DNA from: Amycolatopsis endophytica
GTDB lineage: Bacteria; Actinomycetota; Actinomycetes; Mycobacteriales; Pseudonocardiaceae
DNA: 64,000 bases
Direction: 5' to 3'
Assembly (NCBI RefSeq): GCF_013410405.1
Contig: NZ_JACCFK010000001.1
Span: forward strand, 1,550,001 to 1,614,000
The notes below the pieces were generated by a model. That model did no database searches and was not told where the DNA came from. It was given only the letters and a program-made list of their open reading frames with translations. The position numbers and the translations under genes are program-made. This document shows, piece after piece, positions 9,635 to 49,109 of the stretch (positions are counted from its first letter, which is position 1; each line of letters opens with the position of its first letter).

Positions 9635-11761
9635 TCACTGGCTCAGCCAGTAGCCGTACGAGGTGTAGTCCGGGTAGGGGTTCAACAGCGGGCGCGGCTG
9701 CTGGATCTCCAGCTGCACCGAGGAGTCCGTGATCAGCTCGCCGGGGATCGTGTAGCTGTAGGTCGACCACACGCCGTCGCGTTCGTCGCGGGTCCAGGAG
9801 CCAGCGTCGACGCCGTTGACCAGCACCCGCATGTCGAACACGGTGCCGTGCATCGCCGTGCGGGAGGTGATCGTCAGGGGTTTGCCGGGCTCCAGGTTGT
9901 GCGCCGTGAAACGCTCGCCACCCACGATCGGGCGTGAGCTGTCCACCACGTCACCCACCCGGGCCAGCGAGGTCCATGGCTGCGTGCCCACCTGTGACAG
10001 CACCGGCACGTACCCGTGCTCGCCCTCGCTGGCCAGGTCACCGACGTTCACGTAGTCCCGCAGCACCCCCGGCACCGCCTGCTCGTCGCCGCTCCCGGCC
10101 AGTGACCAGTCGGCCTCGTAGACGTTCAGCTCACGGAACGGCACGATCAACCGCCCTCCGAGATCGGGCTGGGCGTGCACGTCGAAGGTCAGCTCCGACG
10201 GCGTCCGGAGCACCCCGGCGTCCTTGAGCGGCTCCATCGACGGCCCCGGCCACGGGTCGTACACGGCGAAGTAGTCCGGCCGCTGCTCCGCGGGCAGGTG
10301 CTTGAGCGCCTCGTACAGCGAGCCCGTCCCGTTGTTCGCCGGCGCGGCGAACCCGTTCGTGGCCAGTCCGATCAGGTCCAGCACCCGGTGCTCGCCGAAG
10401 TAGGCGACCGCGCCGACGTCCTTCACCGCCACCGTCGCGTCCGGCGGCAGGTTGCCGCGCACCCACTGCGCCACCGACACGTCCGTGTCCCGGATCGCCG
10501 CCGTCGCCCGTCCGTACCGGACCGACCAGCCCGGCAGCTCCGCCAGCGTCACCACCAGCACCACCGCGAGCGCGCCGTGCAGTGAGACGCGCCGGGCCCG
10601 CGACTGGCGGGCGATCCGGCTCAGCCCGTACACGCCGATCACCACGAACAGTACGAACACCGGCATGAACGGCTGCACGTACCGCAGCTCGTGCACCAGC
10701 GCGGTGTTCAAAGTGGACACCGACAGCAGGATCAGCAGCAGCCCGGCGGCCAGTGCGAACAGCATCGGCCGCCAGGTGCGCCGCGTCAGGAACACGTAGG
10801 CCATCCCGGCCGCGAACACCAGCAGCGCACCGGGGAACGCGTAGTCCTGGATGCCGAAGCCGAAGAAGATGCCCAGGAACGACCGCGCGTTGGCCATCGT
10901 CCGGTCGACGAACTCGCTGAACCAGAACACCGGCCGGTCGTGCAGGAACGACTTCGACTGGATGCCGTTCGCCGACGCGGTCCCGGTGGCGATCTTGTAG
11001 AACACCAGCTGCGCGGCGCCGACCGCGACCGGCAGGAGCGTCCACAGTGCCCGCAGCACCGTGCTCCGCGCACCGGCTTCGCGCCGGTTCGCCCCCAACG
11101 TCCACAGTGCCGCGACCGCCAGCATCACGGCCAGGATCAGGCCCTCGGTCCGCACCAGCGCCAGCAGCGCGCCCAGGACGGGCATCCAGGTGAACCGCGG
11201 CTGCTCGTGCACGAACGCCAGCAGCGTCGCGACCACCAGCAGCATGACCAGGCCGACTTCCATGCCGCTGGCCGAACCCCACGCCAGCGGGCCGCTCACC
11301 GCGACCAGCACACCGGCCCACACCCCGACCGCCCTGGACACCAGTTTCGTGCCCAGCACCGTCACCAGCGCGGCCGTGACCGCGAAGCACAGGACGCCGA
11401 ACCCCACGGCGAACGCCAGGAAGAACGTGCCGTGGAACCCGACCGCGTAGGCGGCACCGAGCACCAGCGCGTACAGCAGACTGCTCGCGCCCGCGCTGAT
11501 GTCGTCGCCCGTGTTGAACTGGAAGAAGTGCCCCAGCCCGAGCTGGCGGCCGTACTGCAGGTGGATGTAGACGTCGTCGAGCGGCGCGATCAGCTTGCCG
11601 TCGTTCCAGCCCAGACCACTCAGGACGAACACCGCGCCGACGGCCGCCGCGAGGAGACCGGTGAGCCAGAACGCGGGATCACGGGGCAGGGCGGGACGGG
11701 ACCGCCGCGGGGCGCGGTCGACCTCGTCCGGAGCGTGCAGAACCTCGGTCACTTCACGCAC
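9635..11761 (-). CDS. GT-C superfamily membrane glycosyltransferase
   Basis: A 708-residue multispanning protein predicted to transfer sugars from a lipid-linked donor outside the membrane. Residues 30-420 contain about 11 hydrophobic helices. The first extracytoplasmic loop carries the acidic GT-C motif APLDDVYIHLQYGRQ followed by FQFNTGDDISAGASSLLY, the pattern seen in ArnT/AftB-type enzymes. The C-terminal 290 residues form a soluble, beta-rich periplasmic domain. It lies 27 bp after an unknown gene that follows aftA, so an arabinan-branching or capping role is plausible. Which Aft-type activity it has cannot be decided here. The start could be the GTG at 11761 or the next GTG 9 bp in. Confidence 0.7.
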   Translation of the reverse strand: MREVTEVLHAPDEVDRAPRRSRPALPRDPAFWLTGLLAAAVGAVFVLSGLGWNDGKLIAPLDDVYIHLQYGRQLGLGHFFQFNTGDDISAGASSLLYALVLGAAYAVGFHGTFFLAFAVGFGVLCFAVTAALVTVLGTKLVSRAVGVWAGVLVAVSGPLAWGSASGMEVGLVMLLVVATLLAFVHEQPRFTWMPVLGALLALVRTEGLILAVMLAVAALWTLGANRREAGARSTVLRALWTLLPVAVGAAQLVFYKIATGTASANGIQSKSFLHDRPVFWFSEFVDRTMANARSFLGIFFGFGIQDYAFPGALLVFAAGMAYVFLTRRTWRPMLFALAAGLLLILLSVSTLNTALVHELRYVQPFMPVFVLFVVIGVYGLSRIARQSRARRVSLHGALAVVLVVTLAELPGWSVRYGRATAAIRDTDVSVAQWVRGNLPPDATVAVKDVGAVAYFGEHRVLDLIGLATNGFAAPANNGTGSLYEALKHLPAEQRPDYFAVYDPWPGPSMEPLKDAGVLRTPSELTFDVHAQPDLGGRLIVPFRELNVYEADWSLAGSGDEQAVPGVLRDYVNVGDLASEGEHGYVPVLSQVGTQPWTSLARVGDVVDSSRPIVGGERFTAHNLEPGKPLTITSRTAMHGTVFDMRVLVNGVDAGSWTRDERDGVWSTYSYTIPGELITDSSVQLEIQQPRPLLNPYPDYTSYGYWLSQ

Positions 11762-11788
11762 ACGCCCCGGCCCGGTCTCCTCGTTGCC

Positions 11789-12568
11789 TCATCTGGCCAG
11801 GCTATCGCGCGACTCGCGCCATTGGTCGAACAGCAGGTCCCGGTGCATCTCGTGGTAGCGCGCCAGGTCGAAGACGTGCACGGTTTTCGCCCAGCGCAGT
11901 GCGTCGTCCACGCGGAACCCGTCGGCCTCCGCGCGCTCGAAATCCGTGCCCAGGTAGTAGATCCCGACCGAACCGTCGAGGGTGATCCCGGCCACCTCAC
12001 AGGACGATCCGAGGTATTCGGCACGCGTGCTCACCTCGGCGACCCGTCCGCCCTCGGTTTCCAGCACACCGGACCGCGGCCGCCCGGTGACCACCGCCGC
12101 CTGCCCGTTCGGCCAGCCGCCGTGCAGCGGGAAACCCTCCACCGGGCGCGCGAACCGCGCCGCGCGCCACCGCGTGAAGAGCAGGTCGTTCTGCCGCTCG
12201 GCATACTCGCGGAGGTCACGCAGATCGACGTTCTTGTAGTACTCGTACGAGTTCTCCTGCACGAAACCGTTGACCGTGGCCCATTCGTGGTCCCACTCGG
12301 CTTCCAGGACACGGGCGGTGCCGTTGTCGAAAGCGGTGTCGACCATCACGCGGTGGTCCCGGTAGGACGCGTAGACCTGCACGGAGAAAACGCGTTCACA
12401 CATCTCCACCGGAACCGCACCGGCGAGTTCGCCGCGGGGGTGCGGTGTCGGTCGCTGCCCGTCGGCCTGCGGGAAGTGCACGTAATTGTCGCCAGCCGCA
12501 TAGGAAACCGCGTGCGAAACACCGTCGACGACGGCGATCGTGCCGGTGCGGTACAGGGGGTAGGTCAC
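11789..12568 (-). CDS. Uncharacterised protein with an internal duplication
   Basis: A 259-residue soluble protein with no signal peptide or membrane helix. Two helical segments are clearly related: YAERQNDLLFTRWRAAR (about 139-155) and YHEMHRDLLFDQWRESR near the C-terminus (about 239-255), each preceded by a GF-containing strand. This suggests two copies of one domain. The GTG start has a GAGGGGGAA Shine-Dalgarno 5-10 nt upstream. It sits between aftA (72-bp gap) and a GT-C gene (27-bp gap) in the same direction, so it probably belongs to the arabinogalactan operon. I do not recognise the family. Confidence 0.75.
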   Translation of the reverse strand: MTYPLYRTGTIAVVDGVSHAVSYAAGDNYVHFPQADGQRPTPHPRGELAGAVPVEMCERVFSVQVYASYRDHRVMVDTAFDNGTARVLEAEWDHEWATVNGFVQENSYEYYKNVDLRDLREYAERQNDLLFTRWRAARFARPVEGFPLHGGWPNGQAAVVTGRPRSGVLETEGGRVAEVSTRAEYLGSSCEVAGITLDGSVGIYYLGTDFERAEADGFRVDDALRWAKTVHVFDLARYHEMHRDLLFDQWRESRDSLAR

Positions 12569-12640
12569 GCCGGTTCCCCCTCTGCGTTTACCCGGTTACG
12601 GACTGGTGTGTGCGCAGCAGTTTACGAGAAACTCACACAT

Positions 12641-14590
12641 TCAGCTAATCGGTGCGGCGGTGGTGTCCACGATCACGACGAACGGTCCCACTTGGCGCTG
12701 GACGAACTCGGGCGCGGAGAACAGTTCCGGCGCGAAGGACACGTCGTCCACACGCAACGGAACGCCCCGCGGGAACGTGTCGGTCGCGATCGGCATCACC
12801 AGCGTGCCGTCGTCGGCGCGGCGCAGCACGAACACGTTGGGCGCCTGGTGCGGGTTCGACCGCAACCGCGCGAGCAGGTCGGCCGAATCCGTCGCGCTCG
12901 CCCAAGCCTTGATCTCGTCGTTGCGCTGCGCGTACCCGGCCAGCGGGTTGGCGTAGTGCGGCGTGGTCTGCTGGAAACCCCAGTACGGCTCGAACGACAA
13001 CAGCCTGTCGTGCGCCGAGAGCACGATGTTGCCGGTCGCCGGTCGCCCGGTCAGCTCGCCGATCGCCGAGATCAGCTCGCCCGTCCAGTACCCGTCCTGC
13101 TCGGGGTCGTGCCCGTAGTTCGCGTTCCAGCCGTCCGGGTAGTAGTCGGATTCGGCGGTGTCCACCGTGTCCTTCATCGTGGTGCCGACGATCGTCTGGG
13201 ACACCGACACCGCGCCCAGCACGGCGAGCACGAACGCGACCGTCCGCATCGGCCGGACGTGCTTGCCCAGCCAGCGCACGAGCTCGACCAGCGCGAACAC
13301 GCCCGCCACGGCCAGTGCCACGTCGATGGTCACGATGAACCGGAACGACAGCAGCGTGGTGCGGACCAGGATCGCCAGACTGGACAACGCGAACCACAGG
13401 TAGACCAGCGCGGTCAGCACGAGCAGCACGAACGCGACCGGGTCGCGGCGTGCCCGCACCACCAGCCAGACCAGACCGGCCAGGCACAGCACGCCGAAGA
13501 AGCTCGCCGTCTGGAACGGCATCGGGAAGTAGGTGCTGATCTCGGGCAGGAAGTGCGCGGCGACGTTGGGCTTGCCCAGGCCGCCGGCCAGGATGAACGG
13601 TCCCCAGGTGATCAGCGAGATCAGCCCGGTGACCACGCCGATGCCGATCAGCCGCAGCAGTAGCCGCTTGATCACCGGGCCCGCGGGCTCACCGTCGCGG
13701 ACGTCCAGCGCCAGCGCGACCAGTGCCAGCACCACGACAGCGAACACGCCGAACACCAGGTGCAGCGTGTAGGTGACGCCGGAGAACCCGAGGTAGACGC
13801 CGATCAGCACGAGCGGCCACGCCGGCACGCGGCCGCGACGGCGCAGCACGGACCAGGTCAGCACGAGGACCGGCGGCAGCCAGGCGGTGGTCGGCCACGC
13901 GTAGGGCTCCTCGGGCGCGAGCGCGACGAAACCGGCCAGCACGGTGGCCACCGACGCCAGCAGCGCCATCCGGCGCCGCACGACGAGGCTCCACAACACG
14001 AACGCGACCACACCGGACACCGCGGCCCAGGTGATCGAGTACGGCTTGTACGCCTCCCAGCCCTCCATGCCCAGCAGGTTCGCGAACCGGCCGCCGAGCC
14101 AGAACCAGCCGCCGGGGTAGTAGGCGGCCAGGCCGTGGTAGTTCACGTCGGCCAGGCCCGCGGTCCCGGTCAGCCGCTCCAGGTACTGCAGGCGGAACGT
14201 GTTGTCCACGCTGGAGCCGCCGAGGAAGAACCGGGTGCCCTGCAGCGGGATCGCCAGCAGCAGGGTGGACAGCGCGGTGAGCGCGGCCCAGCTGCCGCCC
14301 AGGCGCACCCACAGCGGCCAGCGGGCGGCGCCGCTGTACAGCAGCGAACCGAACAGCACGATCACGATCACCGCGACGGCCAGGTTGACCAGCGCGTCCG
14401 GCACGTACGTGCCCGTGTCGACGCCCAGCTTGTTCGCGCCGAACTGCAGCACGAGGCTGAACACCACCGCCGCGACGATGCCCAGCACCAGCTCGGCCAC
14501 GGTGCGGCCGGGTCCGAGCCGGGTCAGCGGGTGGTGCGGTGCGGGTTCGGTGTCCGTGTCGCCGCCGGGCCGGGCCAAGGTGGTCGTCAC
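12641..14590 (-). CDS. aftA: Galactan 5-O-arabinofuranosyltransferase AftA (Rv3792-like)
   Basis: GT-C enzyme that adds the first arabinofuranose from decaprenyl-phosphoryl-arabinose to galactan on the outer membrane face. The 649-residue protein has about 11-13 transmembrane helices and AftA landmarks: the loop SSVDNTFRLQYLERLT with its acidic residue, DVNYHGLAAYYPGGWFWLGG, and a C-terminal extracytoplasmic domain of about 170 residues. The GTG at 14590 overlaps the UbiA stop codon (GTGA), so it is the fourth gene of a glf-PAP2-ubiA-aftA operon. In M. tuberculosis aftA lies by embCAB instead. Confidence 0.9.
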   Translation of the reverse strand: MTTTLARPGGDTDTEPAPHHPLTRLGPGRTVAELVLGIVAAVVFSLVLQFGANKLGVDTGTYVPDALVNLAVAVIVIVLFGSLLYSGAARWPLWVRLGGSWAALTALSTLLLAIPLQGTRFFLGGSSVDNTFRLQYLERLTGTAGLADVNYHGLAAYYPGGWFWLGGRFANLLGMEGWEAYKPYSITWAAVSGVVAFVLWSLVVRRRMALLASVATVLAGFVALAPEEPYAWPTTAWLPPVLVLTWSVLRRRGRVPAWPLVLIGVYLGFSGVTYTLHLVFGVFAVVVLALVALALDVRDGEPAGPVIKRLLLRLIGIGVVTGLISLITWGPFILAGGLGKPNVAAHFLPEISTYFPMPFQTASFFGVLCLAGLVWLVVRARRDPVAFVLLVLTALVYLWFALSSLAILVRTTLLSFRFIVTIDVALAVAGVFALVELVRWLGKHVRPMRTVAFVLAVLGAVSVSQTIVGTTMKDTVDTAESDYYPDGWNANYGHDPEQDGYWTGELISAIGELTGRPATGNIVLSAHDRLLSFEPYWGFQQTTPHYANPLAGYAQRNDEIKAWASATDSADLLARLRSNPHQAPNVFVLRRADDGTLVMPIATDTFPRGVPLRVDDVSFAPELFSAPEFVQRQVGPFVVIVDTTAAPIS

Positions 14591-15594
14591 AGGTAGAAGG
14601 TGACCCCGAGGGTGACCACCCACAGCACGCCCAGGACCTGCAGGATGCGGTCCTTGAGCACGATCTCGTCCGGCGCGCCCGCGGTGCCGCCGTCGACGTC
14701 GACCGCGTACCGCAGCACCGCGACGACGAACGGGACCATCGAGATGACCGGCCAGATCGACTGGTCGGAGCCCTCACGCAGCTCGAACGCCCACAGCGAG
14801 TACGACATGATCAGGATCGCCGCCGCCGTCGCCCACACGAAGCGCAGGTAGCTGGCCGAGTACTTCTTCAGCGACGACCGGATCTTCGCTCCGGTGCGCT
14901 CGAAGAGCATGATCTCGGCGTAGCGCTTGCCCGCGACCATGAACAGCGAACCGAACGCGGTGACCAGCAGGAACCACTGCGACAGGGCGATACCGGCGGC
15001 GACACCACCGGCGATCGAGCGCATCAGGAAGCCCGATCCGACGATCGCCAGGTCGATCACCGGCTGGTGCTTGAGGCCGAAGCAGTAGCCCAGCTGCACC
15101 GCCTCGTAGACGCCCAGCACGATCGCCAGTTGCGGGCTCGCCATGAACGACAGGGCCAGGCCGACGCCGAAGAACAGCACCGCGGCCGCGTAGGCGGCGG
15201 GCACCGGCACGATCCCGGCCGCGATCGGCCGGTTCCGCTTCGTCGGGTGCGCCTTGTCCGCCTCGACGTCGACGGCGTCGTTGATCAGGTACACCGACGA
15301 CGCGACCAGGCTGAACGCCACGAACGCGATGACCGCGTCCAGGAGCACCGAACCGTTGGTGATCTGGGCCGCGGTGAACGGCGCCACGAAGACCAGGACG
15401 TTCTTCGCCCACTGCTTCGGGCGCGCCGTCTTCGCGACGCCGAGGACCATGCCCACCGGGCCGCGCTTGGCGGCGGGGGCCGGTTCGGCCGCCGGGGACT
15501 CGGTGGCCTCCGGCGCCGTCGTCTTCGCTTCGGCCGCCTCGCTGGTTTCGTCCACGATCTCGGCTTCCGCGGCGTTGTCAACTGATTTGGTCAC
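14587..15594 (-). CDS. ubiA: Decaprenyl-phosphate phosphoribosyltransferase UbiA (Rv3806c-like)
   Basis: Integral membrane prenyltransferase that moves 5-phosphoribose from PRPP to decaprenyl phosphate, committing it to arabinan donor synthesis. The 335-residue protein begins with an acidic, Ala-rich cytoplasmic tail of about 45 residues not needed for the fold. Then come ARPKQWAKN, the first Asp-rich motif NDAVDVEADKAHPTKRNRP and about nine helices. The GTG start at 15594 follows the PAP2 stop by 10 bp with GGGAAC upstream. The stop overlaps aftA. Motifs and neighbours make the assignment firm. Confidence 0.93.
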   Translation of the reverse strand: MTKSVDNAAEAEIVDETSEAAEAKTTAPEATESPAAEPAPAAKRGPVGMVLGVAKTARPKQWAKNVLVFVAPFTAAQITNGSVLLDAVIAFVAFSLVASSVYLINDAVDVEADKAHPTKRNRPIAAGIVPVPAAYAAAVLFFGVGLALSFMASPQLAIVLGVYEAVQLGYCFGLKHQPVIDLAIVGSGFLMRSIAGGVAAGIALSQWFLLVTAFGSLFMVAGKRYAEIMLFERTGAKIRSSLKKYSASYLRFVWATAAAILIMSYSLWAFELREGSDQSIWPVISMVPFVVAVLRYAVDVDGGTAGAPDEIVLKDRILQVLGVLWVVTLGVTFYL

Positions 15595-41018: not shown

Positions 41019-41161
41019 CGCTCCCGCGCTGGTCACCAGGCGGATCCGGGCCGCGTGTAGAAGGTCACAGCGCATTCACGCGCGGTAAGCCCTACCGTTG
41101 AAGCTGCGTTACCGGAGATGTCGACGCCAGCCCAGCCCACCGACGGGCAAGGAGTGTGGGA

Positions 41162-42094
41162 ATGCCACGGGTACGTGAGCTCAGCCCGTACGTCGAGCTC
41201 CACCGGGAGCAGTGGCGGGAACTGCGCCGCAGCACCCCGCTGCCGCTGACGGCCGAGGAGCTGCGCCGCCTGCGGGGCCTCGGGGAGCAGATCGACCTGA
41301 CCGAGGTCGCCGAGATCTACCTGCCGCTGTCGCGGATGATCAACCTGCAGGTCGCGGCCCGTCAGCGTCTGTACGAGGCGACCACGAGCTTCCTCGGCGA
41401 GGACTGCCGCGGCACGAAGGTGCCGTTCGTGATCGGCATCGCGGGCAGCGTCGCGGTCGGCAAGTCGACCACCGCGCGCATCCTGCGCACCCTGCTCGCC
41501 CGCTGGCCCGACCACCCGCGCGTCGACCTGGTCACCACCGACGGGTTCCTGTACCCGAAGGCCGAGCTGGTGCGGCGCGGCATCATGCACCGCAAGGGCT
41601 TCCCGGAGAGCTACGACCGCCGCGCGCTGCTGCGGTTCGTGTCCGACGTCAAGTCCGGCGCCGAATCGGTCAGCGCGCCGGTGTACTCCCACCTGGCCTA
41701 CGACATCCTGCCCGGCGAGGAGCAGGTCGTGAACCGGCCGGACATCCTCATCATCGAGGGCCTCAACGTGCTGCAGCCGGGCCCGAGCCTGACCGTGTCG
41801 GACCTGTTCGACTTCTCCATCTACGTCGACGCGCACATCGAGGACATCGAACACTGGTACGTGGAGCGGTTCCTCAAACTGCGCGGCACGGCCTTCGCCG
41901 ACCCCGCCTCGCACTTCCACCACTTCGCGACGCTGGACGACGTCGAGGCCCGCGCCGAGGCGCGGCACCTGTGGCGCACCATCAACGAACCGAACCTGGT
42001 GGACAACATCCTGCCGACCCGCCCGCGCGCGACGCTGGTGCTCCGAAAGGACGCCGACCACAGCATCAACCGCGTCCGCCTGCGCAAACTGTAG
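41162..42094 (+). CDS. coaA: Pantothenate kinase, type I
   Basis: First enzyme of coenzyme A synthesis, phosphorylating pantothenate. The 310-residue protein has P-loop [14 protein letters not shown] (about 93-106), [16 protein letters not shown], the substrate segment [14 protein letters not shown] and [11 protein letters not shown]. The [17 protein letters not shown] and [10 protein letters not shown] motifs are typical of the bacterial CoaA enzyme, which is feedback-inhibited by CoA. The ATG has AAGGAG upstream. The 143 bp before it contain TACCGT as a likely -10 element. Confidence 0.96.
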
Positions 42095-42221: not shown

Positions 42222-42344
42222 ATGTTCGCGATCATCGCCACCTGGGTCGGCGCCGTGCTCGGGATCACGGTGCTGCTGGTGATGGCCTTCGGTGCGTTCG
42301 TCCTCGACTTCGAAGACGCGCTCGCCGACCGCCGCCGTACCTAA
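42222..42344 (+). CDS. 40-residue single-helix membrane peptide
   Basis: A very small gene with a strong Shine-Dalgarno GGGAGGAGG 7 nt before the ATG. The product has one membrane helix (about 4-27) followed by an acidic then basic tail ending DRRRT. It lies 127 bp after coaA and overlaps the stop of the convergent B1 gene by 4 bp. Function unknown; its coding nature is supported by the Shine-Dalgarno and clean helix. Confidence 0.6.
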   Translation: MFAIIATWVGAVLGITVLLVMAFGAFVLDFEDALADRRRT

Positions 42345-43822
42345 GCCGGTCCGTCGTCGGTGGTGACCTGCAGGTCGTCGAGGGCGGTCAGGTAGTCGTC
42401 GAGGTCGAACTCCAGTTCGTCGTCCTCGTCGTAGGTGAGCCGCTCCTCGAGGACCGCGGTCAGCTCCGCCAGGACCTCGTCGCGTTCCAGGCCGGACTCG
42501 GTCAGGCGCTGCGCGGCCGCCCACGTCTCGGCGGGCTCGCCGTCCCACAGCTGGTCGACGACCGTGGTCAGCGCGACCGCACGCAGCTCCGACTCGTCGT
42601 CTTCGAACTCCGCCGCGAACTCGGCCAGCACGAGCATGCGCCGCTGCTCCGGATCGGACGGGTCGAGCTCGACCTCGTCGTCCTCGGTCTCGACGGTCAG
42701 CGACGGGAGGGCGAACTGGCGGCGTTCGAGCAGCTCCTGCACGGCGTCCGGGGTGAGGTCGTCGGAACCGGCCAGGTAGGCGTCCAAAGAGGACTCACCT
42801 TCGGGCTCGCGGTCGTCCAGCCTGTCCTCGACGGCCTCGACCAGCGCGGTGAGGGCGTCCTCGGCCAGGCCGTCGCGCTCGCCGAACACGCGCGCCCACA
42901 CCGGCAGCAGCGCGGCCATCGCCGCGTCCTGCTCGTCGGTCAGCTCGATCTGCCCGTCGTCCACGAAATCCACAAAGGACGTCAGCTTGGCCGGGCCGAC
43001 CCGCAGCGGGCGCCGCGAGTCGTGCTCCAGCCCGAACTCGATGACGCGCAGCGCGACCACGCGGGCGTCCTCGCTGTCGCCGACCTCGTCGCCGGCCGCG
43101 GCGAAGAAGGAGTCGATGATCTCGGCCTGCTCCTCGACGGTGAGCGGCTCCGGCTCCTCGACCTCGTCCGGCTCCGGCAGGGTGCGCAGCCGGGCCAGCG
43201 CGAGCGCGCGGAACCGGACGAAGTCCTCGCCCACCTCGGGCTCGGCCTGCCATTCGGTGCCCGCGAAGGCGTCCGCGACCACCTCGTGCGCGACCTCGGG
43301 GCCGATCCGCTCGCTGGTCGACTCGCCGACGGCCCGCAGCTCGGCCAGCACGTCCTGGGGCGACTCGACGATCGCGGCGTCGGTGACCCATCCGCCGAAG
43401 CTGCCGTAGTTGATCGAGACGACCAGCCCGTGGGTGCCGAACGAGACCAGCACGGAACTCTCGTCGCCGTAGACGTCCGTGGTGCGCCAGCACTCGCCCG
43501 CGGTGACCTGGTTCAGCCGCGGCGCCCACGCCGGTTCGGGCAGGCCGAACTTCTCCAGCGCCAGTCCCGCGGCCTCGCGGTGGTCCTCGTCGGTGGCCAG
43601 CACCCGCAGCGCGGCCAGCGCCGGGACCAGGCGCTCCGGCTCGGCGGTCCGCGCGGCGAGGTCGATCAGCCCGGCCGCGAGATCGTCGTCGGCCTCCCAC
43701 CACTCGCCGAGGATCTCCGAGGTGACCAGCTCGACGCGGGTCGGATCGGCGTCGTTCCCCAGCTCGGCGAAGGCGTTCAGAACCTCGTCGAAGGGAGTCT
43801 CCAGCTGCGGCACCTCGGTCAT
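42341..43822 (-). CDS. Unknown acidic protein, family B copy 1 (of duplicated A-B pair)
   Basis: A 493-residue, strongly acidic, helical cytoplasmic protein. Its first 300 residues match the neighbour at 44909-46081: VELVTSEILGEWW here versus VELIASTILGDLW, then ECWRTTDVYGD versus ECWQQADVFGD, and LRVGPAKLTSF versus LRVGPGKFEVL. The C-terminal 150 residues (very Asp/Glu rich, predicted alpha helices) are extra in this copy. It is the last gene of a four-gene operon A2-B2-A1-B1. No catalytic motif is recognised; I do not recognise the family by name. Confidence 0.8.
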   Translation of the reverse strand: MTEVPQLETPFDEVLNAFAELGNDADPTRVELVTSEILGEWWEADDDLAAGLIDLAARTAEPERLVPALAALRVLATDEDHREAAGLALEKFGLPEPAWAPRLNQVTAGECWRTTDVYGDESSVLVSFGTHGLVVSINYGSFGGWVTDAAIVESPQDVLAELRAVGESTSERIGPEVAHEVVADAFAGTEWQAEPEVGEDFVRFRALALARLRTLPEPDEVEEPEPLTVEEQAEIIDSFFAAAGDEVGDSEDARVVALRVIEFGLEHDSRRPLRVGPAKLTSFVDFVDDGQIELTDEQDAAMAALLPVWARVFGERDGLAEDALTALVEAVEDRLDDREPEGESSLDAYLAGSDDLTPDAVQELLERRQFALPSLTVETEDDEVELDPSDPEQRRMLVLAEFAAEFEDDESELRAVALTTVVDQLWDGEPAETWAAAQRLTESGLERDEVLAELTAVLEERLTYDEDDELEFDLDDYLTALDDLQVTTDDGPA

Positions 43823-43873
43823 GGAGCCATGTTCGCACCAGCGGCGCCCGCCCCCACGAGCGGGACCGCCGTT

Positions 43874-44893
43874 TCACTCCTTGGGCAGAGCGATCCGGGC
43901 GTTCCGGATTTCGGCGATCAACCGGGCCTTGCGGCGGTGGGTCGCGACCAGCTCCGCGAGGTAGGGCGCGAACTCCGCCTGCCTGCCGACGGTGCGGTAC
44001 AGCGTGCGCAGCCGGCGCAGCGCCCGCGCGGCCTCGCGGTAGTGCTCGACGCTCTTGCGGCCGATCAGCTCGTCGACGTGGCGCCGGTGCACGTCCAGCA
44101 GCTCGGCGGCCTCGTCGCACCGGCCCGCGGCGACCAGACCGCCGATCAGCTCGTCGGCGTGCTCCGGGGTCGGCTCCCGCTCGAACTGGGCGCGCTGCAG
44201 GCTGAGCACGTCGTCGGCCAGCTCGGTCGCGGCCGGGTCCTGCTTGAGGGCGCGGGCGGCGTAGGTGATCGCCTCACCGGTGCGCCCGGCGGCCCGCAGC
44301 ACGCGGACGATGCGCAGGCTCGCCTCCAGCCGCGGGAGCTGCCGGGACAGGATCGCGACCAGGCCGTCGACGTCGCCGGAGATCTCCACGAGCTGCTCGT
44401 GCAGCCGCTCGGCCACCGCCTCCCGCACCGGGTCGCGGCGGGCCCTGTCGACGTGCGAGCGCAGCTGGGCCAGCCCGGTTTCGCCGAGCGCGGCGGCGAA
44501 CTCGGCCAGGTCCACCTCCGGCCGGGGGCCGTCGAACGCGATCCCCGCCAGCCAGTCCGCCAGCTCGACGGGGTCCGGCGGCCGCGCCACGCACGCCCGC
44601 GCGTAGAGGCCGAGCGCCCGGCGCAGCTCGGCGCCGTCGCCCTCGTCACGGCTGATGCGCTCGACGGTGCGGCGCGCGAGCGGGGCCACGTCGGCGCGGG
44701 TGCCGGAGTCGAGCAGGCGCTGCACGGTGTCCAGCACCGGGCCGATCGTGCTGGGCTCGGGTTCGCGCTCGGATGTCCCGGCCCGGTCTTCGAGCGACCG
44801 CCGCAGCTCCGGATCGCGCCCGGCCTGCTCCAGCAGCAACCCGGCCAGCGTCTCGGCGTCGAGGGATTTCAGGTAGGCGCGGAGATCGCTCAC
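43874..44893 (-). CDS. Unknown helical-repeat protein, family A copy 1
   Basis: A 339-residue protein made almost wholly of predicted helices, in TPR-like pairs. It begins SDLRAYLKSLDAETLAGLLL and ends RKARLIAEIRNARIALPKE, both closely mirrored in copy 2 (46078-47103). The GTG at 44893 aligns the N-terminus with copy 2; an ATG at 44902 would add three residues. It is 15 bp after B2 and 51 bp before B1. The fold suggests a scaffold or peptide-binding protein. Name of the family is not recognised with certainty; it may be related to actinobacterial DUF6880/SWIM-associated proteins. Confidence 0.78.
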   Translation of the reverse strand: MSDLRAYLKSLDAETLAGLLLEQAGRDPELRRSLEDRAGTSEREPEPSTIGPVLDTVQRLLDSGTRADVAPLARRTVERISRDEGDGAELRRALGLYARACVARPPDPVELADWLAGIAFDGPRPEVDLAEFAAALGETGLAQLRSHVDRARRDPVREAVAERLHEQLVEISGDVDGLVAILSRQLPRLEASLRIVRVLRAAGRTGEAITYAARALKQDPAATELADDVLSLQRAQFEREPTPEHADELIGGLVAAGRCDEAAELLDVHRRHVDELIGRKSVEHYREAARALRRLRTLYRTVGRQAEFAPYLAELVATHRRKARLIAEIRNARIALPKE

Positions 44894-44908
44894 CCCGCAC
44901 ATCCTGGC

Positions 44909-46081
44909 CTACGGGCGGCGCAGGGCGATCGGGACGGCACTCTCCGTTTCGTGATCGAAATCGTCCCGGTACTCGGCGAGCCGCGCGCGGAACTCCTCGA
45001 CGATCTCCTCCAGCTCCTCCAGCAGCCGGTCGATCGCCGACGGCGCCAGGCCCGAGCGCGCTCCGGCCCACCTGGCCCACGACGGCAGGACGATGAGCAG
45101 ACCCTCCAGCACGTCGTCCGAGGTTTCGCCGGCCCAGAGGACATGGTCGAGCAGCACCTCGAACTTGCCGGGGCCGACGCGCAGCGGCTGCCCGAGGTCG
45201 TCGTCGCAGCCGAAGTCGACGATGATCCGGACGCTGCGCGCGAGGTCGCCGGTGACCTCGCCGGATTCGGCCAGGAACGCGCCGACCAGCTCGTCTCGCT
45301 CGTCGTCGCCGAACGTCTCGGGCTCGACCACCGGGTCGGCGGGCGGCATGGCCCGCAGCCGCGCCGCGACCAGGGCACGCATCGGGGCGAACGGGTCCTC
45401 TTCCGCCACCGCCGGGGGCAACAGGGCGATGACGCTCTCGTTGACCGCGATGGCGTCTTCGAGGATCCGGCGCGCGCGGGCGGGCGGAACCGGCTCGGTC
45501 ACCATGACCTCGCTGGCCTCCTGGCCCGCGCGCATCTCGTCGACGACCTCGTCGACGTTGTCGATGAGGTAGAGGTCGCCCAGCCCGCCACCGCTGAAAT
45601 CGACCTCGGCGACCAACCCGTGCGGTTTCCCGCCCAGCCTGCAGCGCAGCACCAGCGCGGCGCCGTCGCCGAACACGTCGGCCTGCTGCCAGCACTCGTC
45701 GACGACGACCGCACCCAGGGCCTCGCCCCACGGCGGCTCCGGCATGGCGGTGAACGCGTCGGCCGCCGCGGCGGCGCGGGTGCGCTGCGCCTCGGTGAGG
45801 CCGAGGTGCTCGATCATGCGCAGCAGCGCGCGGGCGGCCGGGCTCGGCCTGCGGGCGGCGTCGTCGATCAGCGGCAGCAGCACGTCGTGCTCGGCGCCCG
45901 CGGGCTGCCACAGGTCACCGAGGATGGTCGAGGCGATCAGCTCGACCTCGACCGGATCACGCTCGGCGAGCGCGTCGTCGGCGTCGGCGAGAACGGTTTT
46001 GAGCAGCTGGCGGCGTTCCGTCGCGAGACTGGACTTCGTGGTCTTCTTGGTGGGCTTGCGGCCCCGGCTGACCGGGCTCAT
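44909..46081 (-). CDS. Unknown protein, family B copy 2
   Basis: A 390-residue protein related to B1 over most of its length but with a basic N-terminus (SRGRKPTKKTTKSS) and no long acidic C-terminal extension. It contains ECWQQADVFGDGAALVLRC and EVDFSGGGLGDLYLIDN, likely a beta-rich middle domain, between helical ends. Its ATG overlaps the A2 stop codon (ATGA), so A2 and B2 are made together. No enzyme motif is recognised. Confidence 0.8.
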   Translation of the reverse strand: MSPVSRGRKPTKKTTKSSLATERRQLLKTVLADADDALAERDPVEVELIASTILGDLWQPAGAEHDVLLPLIDDAARRPSPAARALLRMIEHLGLTEAQRTRAAAAADAFTAMPEPPWGEALGAVVVDECWQQADVFGDGAALVLRCRLGGKPHGLVAEVDFSGGGLGDLYLIDNVDEVVDEMRAGQEASEVMVTEPVPPARARRILEDAIAVNESVIALLPPAVAEEDPFAPMRALVAARLRAMPPADPVVEPETFGDDERDELVGAFLAESGEVTGDLARSVRIIVDFGCDDDLGQPLRVGPGKFEVLLDHVLWAGETSDDVLEGLLIVLPSWARWAGARSGLAPSAIDRLLEELEEIVEEFRARLAEYRDDFDHETESAVPIALRRP

Positions 46082-47103
46082 CCGCTCATAGTGGCACGCC
46101 CCGGCACCGCCTTGGGCACGGCGATGCGGGCGTTGCGGACCTCGACCAGCAGGCGTGTCTTGCGCTTGTGCGTCTCGACCAGTCCGGCCAGGTACTCGCC
46201 GAACTCGGGCACGAGATCCGCGCGCCGGTGCAGGGTGCGCAGGTCACGCAGCCGCCGGGCCGCCTCGCGGTAGCCGCCGGGGGCCCTGAGCTGGATCAGT
46301 TCCTCGACGTGCACGCGGTAGACGGGGATCGCCCCGGCCGGATCGCGATCGGCGAGACGGCCGAGGGCGTCGTCCCGCTCGGCGGGCCAGCGGTCGAGCT
46401 CCTCGGCGGCGGCACGCAACGCGCGGTAGGTGCCGGGCGAGGGGTGACGGCGGAACTCGGCGCGGCGCAGGGCGAGCACGCCTTCGTGTGGGTGCACGAC
46501 GGTGCGCGCGGCGTGGGCGATGGCTTCGCCGTGGCGGCCCGCCGAACGCAGCAGGCGGACGATGCGCAGTGTGGTGGCCGGGGTGGGTGGCTGGGCGGAG
46601 AGGATTTCCAGCAGCGTGTCGACGTCGCCGGTGACCTCGGCGAGCTGCTCGGTGAGACGGGGGTCGGGCGGACCTTGCGCGAGCGCCGCCCGGATGTGCG
46701 CCAGTCCCTCGTCGCCGAGAGCGGGCGCGAAATCGGCGAGGGTGATTTCCGGCTGTCCGGGACGGTCCTTCGCCGCCAGCAGCCAGTCGGCCAGTTCGCG
46801 CGGATCGGGCGGGTGGACGGCGCAGGCGCGGGCGTACAAGCCGATCGCGCGGCGCAGCTCGGCTCCGGTGGCGTCGCTGTCGGCCATGCGGCGGGCCAGC
46901 GGGGTCAGATCGGCCTGGGTCCCGGCGTCGAGAAGTCGTTGCAGAGTGTCGAGAACCGGGCCGGCCTTCCCTTGCGCGACGGCGCGCAGTTCCAGCTCAT
47001 GCCGTAACCGAGGGTCACGGACGGCCTGATCGAGCAGGAGTTCGGCCAGCGTCTCCGCATCGAGGGTGCGCAGGTACGCACGCAGATCCGGAGCCGGGGT
47101 CAC
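46078..47103 (-). CDS. Unknown helical-repeat protein, family A copy 2
   Basis: A 341-residue all-helical protein paralogous to A1 (43874-44893). Shared landmarks are DLRAYLRTLDAETLAELLLDQA at the start, PVLDTLQRLLDAGTQ, LRRAIGLYARAC.VHPPDP and EVRNARIAVPK at the end. It is the first gene of the A2-B2-A1-B1 operon. The GTG lies 6 nt after AGGATT. Similar overall size and order of both copies show that the A-B pair duplicated as a unit. Confidence 0.8.
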   Translation of the reverse strand: MTPAPDLRAYLRTLDAETLAELLLDQAVRDPRLRHELELRAVAQGKAGPVLDTLQRLLDAGTQADLTPLARRMADSDATGAELRRAIGLYARACAVHPPDPRELADWLLAAKDRPGQPEITLADFAPALGDEGLAHIRAALAQGPPDPRLTEQLAEVTGDVDTLLEILSAQPPTPATTLRIVRLLRSAGRHGEAIAHAARTVVHPHEGVLALRRAEFRRHPSPGTYRALRAAAEELDRWPAERDDALGRLADRDPAGAIPVYRVHVEELIQLRAPGGYREAARRLRDLRTLHRRADLVPEFGEYLAGLVETHKRKTRLLVEVRNARIAVPKAVPGRATMSG

Positions 47104-47178: not shown

Positions 47179-47526
47179 TCAACAGGGGCTGAGCCACTGG
47201 AAGAAGTACCCGGTGGACGCGCCACGATCGAGGTCGTCCAACAGGGGGACGGGCGAGATCTCCGGAACGCTGCGCGGATACGGGCGCCACCGGCCCGCGT
47301 CGGCGAGGTAGTAGAGCGACCACATCTCGTCGGCGCCGTAGCGGAGCTGGGCGAAGGGGCGTTCGGCCGCTCCCCCGCTCGACCGGTCGGCGCGCCGCTC
47401 GACGAGGGTCACGATGCGCCCGCGCCAGCGGGACCCGATCGTGTACTCACCGCGCTGACCAGCCGGAACCCGCCGCTCACACCAGCGATCGATCTGGCGT
47501 TGCTGGAGCTCGGGAATCGGCGACAT
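47179..47526 (-). CDS. DUF3024-domain protein
   Basis: A 115-residue protein matching the small DUF3024 family: YTIGSRWRGRIVTLVERR (about 27-44), the AQLRYGADEMWSLYYLADAGRWRPY strand-rich core and GYFFQWL at the end. The function is unknown. The ATG at 47526 is chosen because family similarity starts at once with PIPELQQRQIDRWCE; a GTG two codons upstream is an alternative. It is transcribed toward the A-B operon, ending 75 bp before it. Confidence 0.75.
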   Translation of the reverse strand: MSPIPELQQRQIDRWCERRVPAGQRGEYTIGSRWRGRIVTLVERRADRSSGGAAERPFAQLRYGADEMWSLYYLADAGRWRPYPRSVPEISPVPLLDDLDRGASTGYFFQWLSPC

Positions 47527-47618: not shown

Positions 47619-49109
47619 TCAGGCGCTGCCCGAAGAGACGGCCGGGTAGCGGTTCTTCGGTTCGCTCACCGACCAGCCGCCGAGGAGCAGGCCGACCCCG
47701 ATCGCGCCGAGGACGATCCCCGCGACCACACCGGCACCGGCGAAGAGCGCGATCACCGTCAGGAGCATCAGGACGAGACCGACGCCCATCATCGCCCACG
47801 CGCCCCACAGACGCTCACGCGCAACGGGCGGCGGAGCGGCGGCGGCGCGCGGCACCGGTGCCGCCATGACGGGAACGGCCCGCGGCACCGGCGGCGGCGG
47901 GATGGGTTGCGGGGCAACGGGTTGTGGCGCCAAGTCCAGGGTTCGCCACGCGGTCGGCAGGTCGAGCACGCCGGCCCCGAGCTCGCGGGCGCGCGCGAGC
48001 CGGGGTTCGGTGGCGGGGACGTCTTCGGCGACGGCGAGGTGCGTGACCGACGCCGTGAGGTTCTTCGCCAGCGGGATCCGCGCCGCGAGCACGGCCGCCC
48101 GTAACGCGTCGGCGGCGGCGGTGCCGCCCAGGACGAGAACCCGCGTCCTGGCCGGGGTCGTGGTCCGGCGCAGGTCCGCCAGCGCCTCCGGAACGCCGAG
48201 CGCTTCGGCGACGTGCCTCAGGTCCCGCTCCTCCCGGGCCGTCACGATGCCGTCGGATTCGGCCACGGACCGCATCGCGGCGACGAAGTCCAGGTGCGCG
48301 CCGCGCACGTCCGCCGGGGACATACCGGCGTCGGCCGCCAGCGCGGCCAGCTCCGCCGCTTCCGCCGCGGACAGGTAGTGGTCGGCGAGGACGTCCGCGA
48401 GCAGATCCTGATAGGGGGTGGCCACCGTTTCGATGCGGTCGACCAGACCCGAGACCCAGGTGCCCGCGGCGGCCGGGGCGGGCACCGGACGGCTCACCGG
48501 GCGCCCGGTGACGGCCAGGCGCGGCAGCTGCGGGAGTTCGAAGGAACGCTCGAAGGCCAGCCGGTGCGTGCCGACCAGCGCCGTGACGATCCGCGCGCAG
48601 GCGAGAGCGTCGGGAGCGGCCATGTGCGCCGCGAACCCGCCGAGGCCGAGTGCCTCCGCCACGGTGGCCAGGCGGTAGTTCGGCAGCCGCAGGGCCGACC
48701 GCGCCGCGTCCAGCGTGCAGACGCCGGGCAGTGTCGGCAGCCGCAGTCCGATCCGGTCCAGTTCCGCCGCCAGGAATCCCTGCTCGAAGCTCAGGTTGTG
48801 CCCGACGAGCACGCTGCCCCGGCACAGGTCGAGCAGGTGCCCGATCACCTGCCCGAGCGACGGCGCCGAATCCAGCTCCGCGCGCGTGATGCCGTGCACC
48901 CTGGCCGGGCCGGGGTGCACGCCCGGCCCGGGATCGACCAGTGTCGAGAACTCGCCGAGCACCGTCCCGTCGGCGCGCACGCGGACCGCGGCGAGTTCGA
49001 CGATCCGGCCGGGCCGCAACCCGGTCGTCTCGAAGTCGATCGCGGTGAACTCGGTCCCGGTGGCGGCAAAACGCCCCGAACCGGACATGGGAACGATATC
49101 GATGAGCAT
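47619..49109 (-). CDS. DEDDh exonuclease with TerB-like, BRCT-like and membrane domains
   Basis: A 496-residue multidomain protein. Residues 18-180 are a DnaQ-type 3'-5' exonuclease: FTAIDFETTGLRPG (Exo I), VGHNLSFEQGFL (Exo II) and HMAAPDALACARI (Exo III with His and Asp). Residues 235-305 are helical and TerB-like. Residues 320-395 resemble a BRCT domain (TRVLVLGGTAAAD, VTHLAVAEDV, LDLPTAWRTL). A Pro-rich linker then leads to two membrane helices near 440-485. Domain calls after the exonuclease are inferences. An AGGGA lies upstream of the ATG at 49109. Confidence 0.78.
   Translation of the reverse strand: MLIDIVPMSGSGRFAATGTEFTAIDFETTGLRPGRIVELAAVRVRADGTVLGEFSTLVDPGPGVHPGPARVHGITRAELDSAPSLGQVIGHLLDLCRGSVLVGHNLSFEQGFLAAELDRIGLRLPTLPGVCTLDAARSALRLPNYRLATVAEALGLGGFAAHMAAPDALACARIVTALVGTHRLAFERSFELPQLPRLAVTGRPVSRPVPAPAAAGTWVSGLVDRIETVATPYQDLLADVLADHYLSAAEAAELAALAADAGMSPADVRGAHLDFVAAMRSVAESDGIVTAREERDLRHVAEALGVPEALADLRRTTTPARTRVLVLGGTAAADALRAAVLAARIPLAKNLTASVTHLAVAEDVPATEPRLARARELGAGVLDLPTAWRTLDLAPQPVAPQPIPPPPVPRAVPVMAAPVPRAAAAPPPVARERLWGAWAMMGVGLVLMLLTVIALFAGAGVVAGIVLGAIGVGLLLGGWSVSEPKNRYPAVSSGSA

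Follow-up and report, generated by a model that had tools for sequence, protein, structure and literature searches.

Among proteins in the Pfam database, the closest described relatives of the genes considered here are the DUF6880 family (PF21810), some distant members of which carry an N-terminal SWIM zinc finger (CxC..CxH), and proteins that bear DUF1841 (PF08897), DUF6398 (PF19935), or PRiA4_ORF3 (PF07929). In a 64,000-nucleotide stretch of the Amycolatopsis endophytica genome (contig NZ_JACCFK010000001.1, positions 1,550,001 to 1,614,000; hereafter the window), a first-pass annotation had described four minus-strand genes, in the order A2-B2-A1-B1, as two copies of one gene pair of unknown families. 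We confirmed that this duplicated module is real. All four open reading frames were found where described, A2 and B2 overlap by 4 nt as claimed, and the 15-bp gap reported between B2 and A1 fits an in-frame GTG start of A1 (6 nt if A1 starts at ATG). The copies are true paralogs that align clearly, with 50% identity between A1 and A2 over their length (E 8e-94) and 35% identity between B1 and B2 over about 320 residues (E 4e-39). The shared ends of the A proteins and the shared blocks of the B proteins are present in these alignments, and no further A or B match exists in the same genome at E 0.01. The label of unknown families does not hold for A, which belongs to DUF6880, and holds in part for B, which falls in an unnamed family that often carries DUF1841.

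Gene losses in related genomes rank the four genes. We compared 15 distinct genomes of the window's clade, counting once the five overlaps between loci collected by name and 11 genomes of the genus (G356=L007, G359=L005, G362=L008, G363=L006, and G364=L009). B1 is present in all 15 genomes, A1 and A2 in 13 each, and B2 in nine, with all four genes in eight. B1 was also found in 11/11 genus genomes that were picked regardless of B, five of which repeat the named loci. Four of the 13 genomes with A2 have no B2: G355 and G365, which belong to the subclade of the window, and G358 and G361, which belong to the G360-type subclade. In each of them A1 comes immediately after A2, and searches with B2 recover B1 and otherwise only hits at E 0.01-1. 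Because these genomes fall in two separate subclades, B2 was lost at least twice independently while A2 stayed. B2 is also missing from L009 and L025, both of which lack A2, and B2 without A2 was never seen (0/9 B2 genomes among the 15).

Ratios of non-synonymous to synonymous substitution rates (dN/dS) relative to A. thermalba, A. deserti, and A. tucumanensis (L005-L007) are 0.28-0.31 for A1, 0.17-0.23 for A2, 0.21-0.25 for B1, and 0.53-0.54 for B2, which makes B2 the fastest-evolving of the four genes, at about twice the ratio of B1. Since these values are under 1, all four genes look to be under selection to keep their proteins. The first-pass annotation had taken both pairs to be retained as a unit, A1-B1 and A2-B2 perhaps having copy-specific clients. 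The presence of all four genes in 8/15 genomes and of A2 with B2 in nine, together with the lack of any B2 without A2 there, would agree with such matched pairs. However, retention as a unit is contradicted by the 4/13 A2 genomes without B2, by the two or more losses behind them, and by the absence of A1 or of A2 and B2 together elsewhere; A. anabasis, for example, retains the second pair, ordered B2-A2, but lacks A1. With B2 lost repeatedly, deprived of its C-terminal domain, and evolving fastest, copy-specific clients are disfavored, and we regard two matched pairs as very unlikely. Of the earlier interpretation, the true duplication and the local adjacency of A and B stand. What selection maintains is B1 together with one A gene or two, not matched, copy-specific pairs.

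The difference between B1 and B2 is best understood from the anatomy of the B family. An AlphaFold2 model of B1 (mean predicted local distance difference test score, pLDDT, 93.3) has a helical N-terminus, a small alpha/beta domain with the ECW..DVYGD block, a helical domain with PLRVGP, and a C-terminal DUF1841-like domain; searches with this model against solved and viral structures gave no convincing match, and neither B1 nor B2 exceeds the cut-off of any Pfam model. In an alignment of 21 members (the two window proteins and 19 homologs), DUF1841 was found in eight and PRiA4_ORF3 in four. Among eight B-type proteins checked individually, six have DUF1841 in the C-terminal part, ahead of PRiA4_ORF3 where both occur. 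In three of these six (P0074, P0075, and P0079) DUF1841 falls in the alignment columns of the B1 tail, and in P0036, which shares 56% identity with B1 across 98% of the B1 length, the domain lies near the end with a score narrowly over the cut-off (25.4 vs. 24 bits). B2 ends before this position, and its profile match stops at 407 of 535 positions. The first-pass annotation had described a 150-residue acidic extension of B1. Of the two window copies only B1 has this tail, but it appears to be a DUF1841-type domain of ancestral origin that was lost from B2, and not an addition to B1, since homologs carry DUF1841 in the same place; the B1 copy would be too diverged to match on its own. Loss in B2 is supported by A. 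anabasis: the B2 gene of this species branches as sister to the remaining B2 genes, yet its match covers the B profile right through to the end. This full-length B2 has no Pfam match.

More distant relatives extend this pattern. Among 12 further proteins with the B core, DUF6398 was found above the cut-off in five and below it in one, PRiA4_ORF3 in one, and no match in the remaining five. Those with PRiA4_ORF3 or DUF6398 share with B a core with DVYGD-type and PLRVGP or DPLRWSP blocks, whereas their C-termini are other than those of B, and no A gene is nearby in the loci examined. PRiA4_ORF3 itself is absent from B1 and B2. The comparison places B in an unnamed actinobacterial family with exchangeable ends. 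As separate observations, a region of about 9 kb in one genome (G030) encodes three B-core proteins (L141:5782-6828, 11675-13213, and 13267-14943), at least one of them ending in PRiA4_ORF3, on a stretch that lacks A; in other genomes, then, the B core is duplicated independently of A. A DUF1841-type region also occurs near the N-terminus of large actinobacterial proteins without the B core (L124, L126, L127, L128, and L129), one of them with a SEC-C motif; this SEC-C protein (L126) matches the DUF1841 part only and was excluded from the B-core counts.

For the A proteins, A2 scores 39.5 bits against DUF6880, above the curated cut-off of 27.3, and A1 scores 20.7 bits, below it, yet is its 50% identical paralog. 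Both are shorter than many relatives (about 340 vs. about 440 aa) as a result of gaps in the middle of the protein. The SWIM motif (CxC...CxH) that precedes the DUF6880 region in some distant relatives was found in neither A1 nor A2, nor in the A genes of L005-L029. The corresponding pattern CxCP..CKH is present in 8/21 distant A loci (L041, L044, L052, L053, L105, L136, L137, and L138), and L045 would be a ninth but is uncertain, as the frame in question runs into the neighboring gene; Pfam confirmed SWIM in L105 and L136 and not in L097. The AlphaFold2 model of A1 (mean pLDDT 90.8) contains 19 helices and no strand, and its top matches in the PDB are TPR superhelices. The predicted fold of A is accordingly described as a TPR-like superhelix, with a likeness to O-GlcNAc transferase TPR, designed CTPRs, and BamD that is only general (TM-scores below 0.4); the TPR models of Pfam stay under their cut-offs, as TPR_14 does in A1 (20.2 vs. 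23.5 bits).

The A-B pair was probably duplicated in tandem before the split of Amycolatopsis and Prauserella, with losses later, as the topology of the B tree and tests on the A tree suggest. In a quick B tree (midpoint root, support by the Shimodaira-Hasegawa-like approximate likelihood ratio test, SH-aLRT, only), the B2 clade branches outside the B1-type genes as a whole, Prauserella included, with support of 98 for the B1 side and 93 for the grouping of B2 with that of A. anabasis. A careful A tree, from which the long or short rows L098, L101, and L027 were omitted (a quick A tree includes them), rejected a recent duplication into A1 and A2 (approximately unbiased test, AU, p 0.031) and did not reject an A2-first order that matches B (p 0.10).

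Taken together with B1 being the sole gene in every clade genome examined, usually accompanied by two A genes, sometimes by one, and once by none, these patterns led us to a tentative explanation, to which we give somewhat less than an even chance. A and B may be non-enzymatic scaffold or adaptor proteins that most likely work as a set of one B1 and either one A protein or two, B2 being optional and decaying. This likely composition of the set follows from the presence of B1 in all clade genomes, the variable A copies, and the loss of B2 where A2 was kept. Under this explanation, the short-spaced, co-directional gene run would be read as a single transcript. A, a SWIM-less DUF6880 protein with a TPR-like superhelix, would bind a protein or peptide ligand, and B would combine a constant core with a C-terminal module that chooses the partner (DUF1841-type here, DUF6398 or PRiA4_ORF3 in some relatives). 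A and B1 would be in physical contact. After tandem duplication of the unit, B2 lost its C-terminal module, evolved fast, and was deleted at least twice, with A2 staying behind. The loose idea of a paired module then becomes one simple question, namely, whether A2 binds B1 where B2 is absent.

When named genomes were searched for close homologs of B, 25 loci were collected, all from Amycolatopsis, Prauserella, or Qaidamihabitans, in which B1 is present by choice. A is adjacent to or near B in 24/25 of them: directly adjacent in 20, as judged by marker genes, and separated by one or two genes in four (L012, L013, L021, and L023). In 60 genomes of the family, which may overlap the named loci, A was found in 36 and B in 24 (E 1e-5), and A is adjacent in 7/9 genomes whose B scores at least 400 bits. 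This adjacency, and the fact that B2 is never seen without A2, speak for the claimed partnership. However, the downstream boundary gene, which we take to be coaA and used as a synteny control, lies within 3 kb of B in 23/25 loci (one of the two exceptions falls at a contig end). Because this unrelated gene is kept near B almost as well, adjacency within the clade is weak evidence of partnership, and vertical synteny explains most of it.

Several other observations weigh against the scaffold explanation or parts of its history, and some of them favor the alternative that A and B are functionally unrelated and are neighbors only through vertical inheritance of a chromosomal slot. Outside the clade, each gene is often present without the other. 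In six fetched genomes from there (L092, L093, L095, L096, L098, and L101), A keeps the slot at coaA, beside a gene for a superfamily 1 (SF1)-helicase-like protein, without B. Conversely, A was absent from 20 further B-core stretches from other genomes (6-13 kb each, several short) and from L139-L141. No A-B fusion was found among 252 homologs, of which 120 match the A profile only and 132 the B profile only. Within the clade, A. taiwanensis has B1 alone, with no A at the locus (L009) or in a search of the genome (G364), A. rhizosphaerae has only A1-B1, and A. anabasis has the order B2-A2-exonuclease-B1, so that neither A copy is indispensable: A1 is missing in the latter and A2 in the former. 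A1, A2, and B2 are each missing in some clade genome, and other genes stand between A and B in the four loci given above. In A. orientalis (L027:11503-12468), A is inverted and convergent with B, and its match misses about 60 N-terminal profile positions. B1 itself has no DUF1841 match at the Pfam cut-off of 24 bits, and the A tree is rooted by a single distant outgroup row. Two points argue against mere neighborhood: at most loci, L027 being an exception, the two genes run in one direction and either overlap or are separated by short spacers, and the second copy arose as an A2-B2 pair of which B2 is never seen without A2. We consider mere neighborhood a serious possibility, though one short of probable, as we do the scaffold explanation.

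At the phylum level, 21 of 296 sampled genomes have a match to the B profile, 16 by the core (the window's own genome included) and five by the DUF1841 part alone. The DUF6880 model (E 1e-10) matched in seven, a lower bound because the model misses the window's own A genes at this threshold. Only G114 has both matches, on different contigs.

The upstream neighbors of the module raise another alternative, in which the run of exonuclease, DUF3024 protein, A, and B would be a chromosomal, non-mobile defense or nucleic-acid stress module drawn from phage-defense candidate (PDC) families of PADLOC. Similarity to PDC-S62 spans the whole length of all four distant full-length A relatives that were scanned (E 3e-28 to 2e-57). 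In the window, the exonuclease hits PDC-S48 (E 2.5e-78) and the DUF3024 protein partially hits PDC-S43 (E 3e-7), while 0/13 other genes tested there have a PADLOC hit at E 1e-3 and coaA has none. The SF1-helicase-like neighbor of A in related genera would also fit. Against this, A1 (E 9e-4) and A2 (E 5e-4) match PDC-S62 over only 66-70 of 566 positions at the C-terminal side, with about 16 bits, and B1 and B2 match no PADLOC profile at E 1e-3. Within the clade the locus keeps its synteny and occurs almost universally rather than patchily. Phages yielded no match to A2 or B1 and plasmids none to A2, and the sole "plasmid" match of B1 is a record of 11.85 Mb. Furthermore, PMC12988326 describes most PDC families as lacking experimental validation. 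A defense module is unlikely on balance, and the PADLOC links hint at nucleic-acid or defense-type origins.

A variant that combines these elements is distinctly unlikely in our estimation. One or two A solenoids and one B1 would form a domesticated chromosomal module derived from the SWIM+DUF6880/PDC-S62 family. Such a module would have shed the zinc finger, acquired a B whose C-terminal targeting domain can be exchanged, and come to act beside a DnaQ-type exonuclease; two different A solenoids would share one B in most clade species, and B2 would be a truncated competitor or a relic. As a separate observation, three Amycolatopsis species have a related DnaQ-type exonuclease gene positioned between A and B (L010:8656-9909, L012:7738-8958, and L013:5644-6846), with scores against PDC-S48 of 548 bits in L010 and 522 in L012 and a BRCT domain by Pfam in both. 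This gene is rare in the genus sample, with one match in 13 genomes (E 1e-60), in G360, where it lies megabases from the A and B genes, an argument against a fixed link to A-B.

We regard the locus as ordinary genome evolution of uncharacterized families, in which the natural deletions make a clean argument and the unnamed domain family deserves description. These comparisons give two protein families of no known function an anatomy and a history. Features are listed in Table 1. The names coaA, pheA, and SPFH were assigned by reading the sequences and are putative.

Table 1. Features of the A2-B2-A1-B1 locus in window coordinates, and positions of toxin-antitoxin-type genes at B-core loci of other genomes.
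Feature	Position	Strand	Description
A2	46078..47103 (47103-46078)	-	341 aa, GTG start; DUF6880-family, SWIM-less; close paralog of A1
B2	44909..46081	-	390 aa; B-core protein without C-terminal DUF1841-type domain; fast-evolving
A1	43874..44902	-	342 aa; DUF6880-type, modeled as TPR-like alpha-solenoid
B1	42341..43822	-	493 aa; full-length B protein
B1 C-terminal part absent from B2	42341..42805	-	about residues 340-493
DUF1841-like domain inside B1 tail	about residues 366-485		read from alignment
DUF3024 protein	47179..47496	-	upstream neighbor, 75 nt before A2; PF11225 73.8 bits
Exonuclease (RNase_T)	47619..49109	-	upstream neighbor; PF00929 82.2 bits
coaA (putative)	41156..42094	+	convergent downstream boundary gene; synteny control
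Toxin-antitoxin-type genes next to B	L139:7522-9995, L141:5782-7517, L146:4134-7033, L147:3296-5499, L148:3190-5830		other genomes

Toxin-antitoxin-type genes, identified by Pfam, adjoin B in 5/23 B-core stretches from other genomes and belong to the Phd-PIN, Phd-ParE, RES-Xre/MbcA, NTP_transf-HepT, and PIN types; a sixth candidate, in L157, had no Pfam match. In G030, the only Phd match in 8.3 Mb adjoins one of its B genes. We rejected a link between such genes and the B core, as the comparison was post hoc and Poisson p values ranged from 0.005 to 0.07 depending on the family (PIN or Phd) and the distance considered.

Other neighbors of A recur in related genera. A large SF1-helicase-like protein is encoded directly upstream of A (L021:4268-7333 and L093:5508-7859), with an AAA_11 domain in L021 and L094 and a weak PLDc_2 match in L094. 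In other Pseudonocardiaceae genera (L099-L109; e.g., L106:6127-8604), an A-type gene lies within about 6 kb of a gene for what is presumably an SPFH/band-7-like protein, rather than of B, in 7/11 loci.

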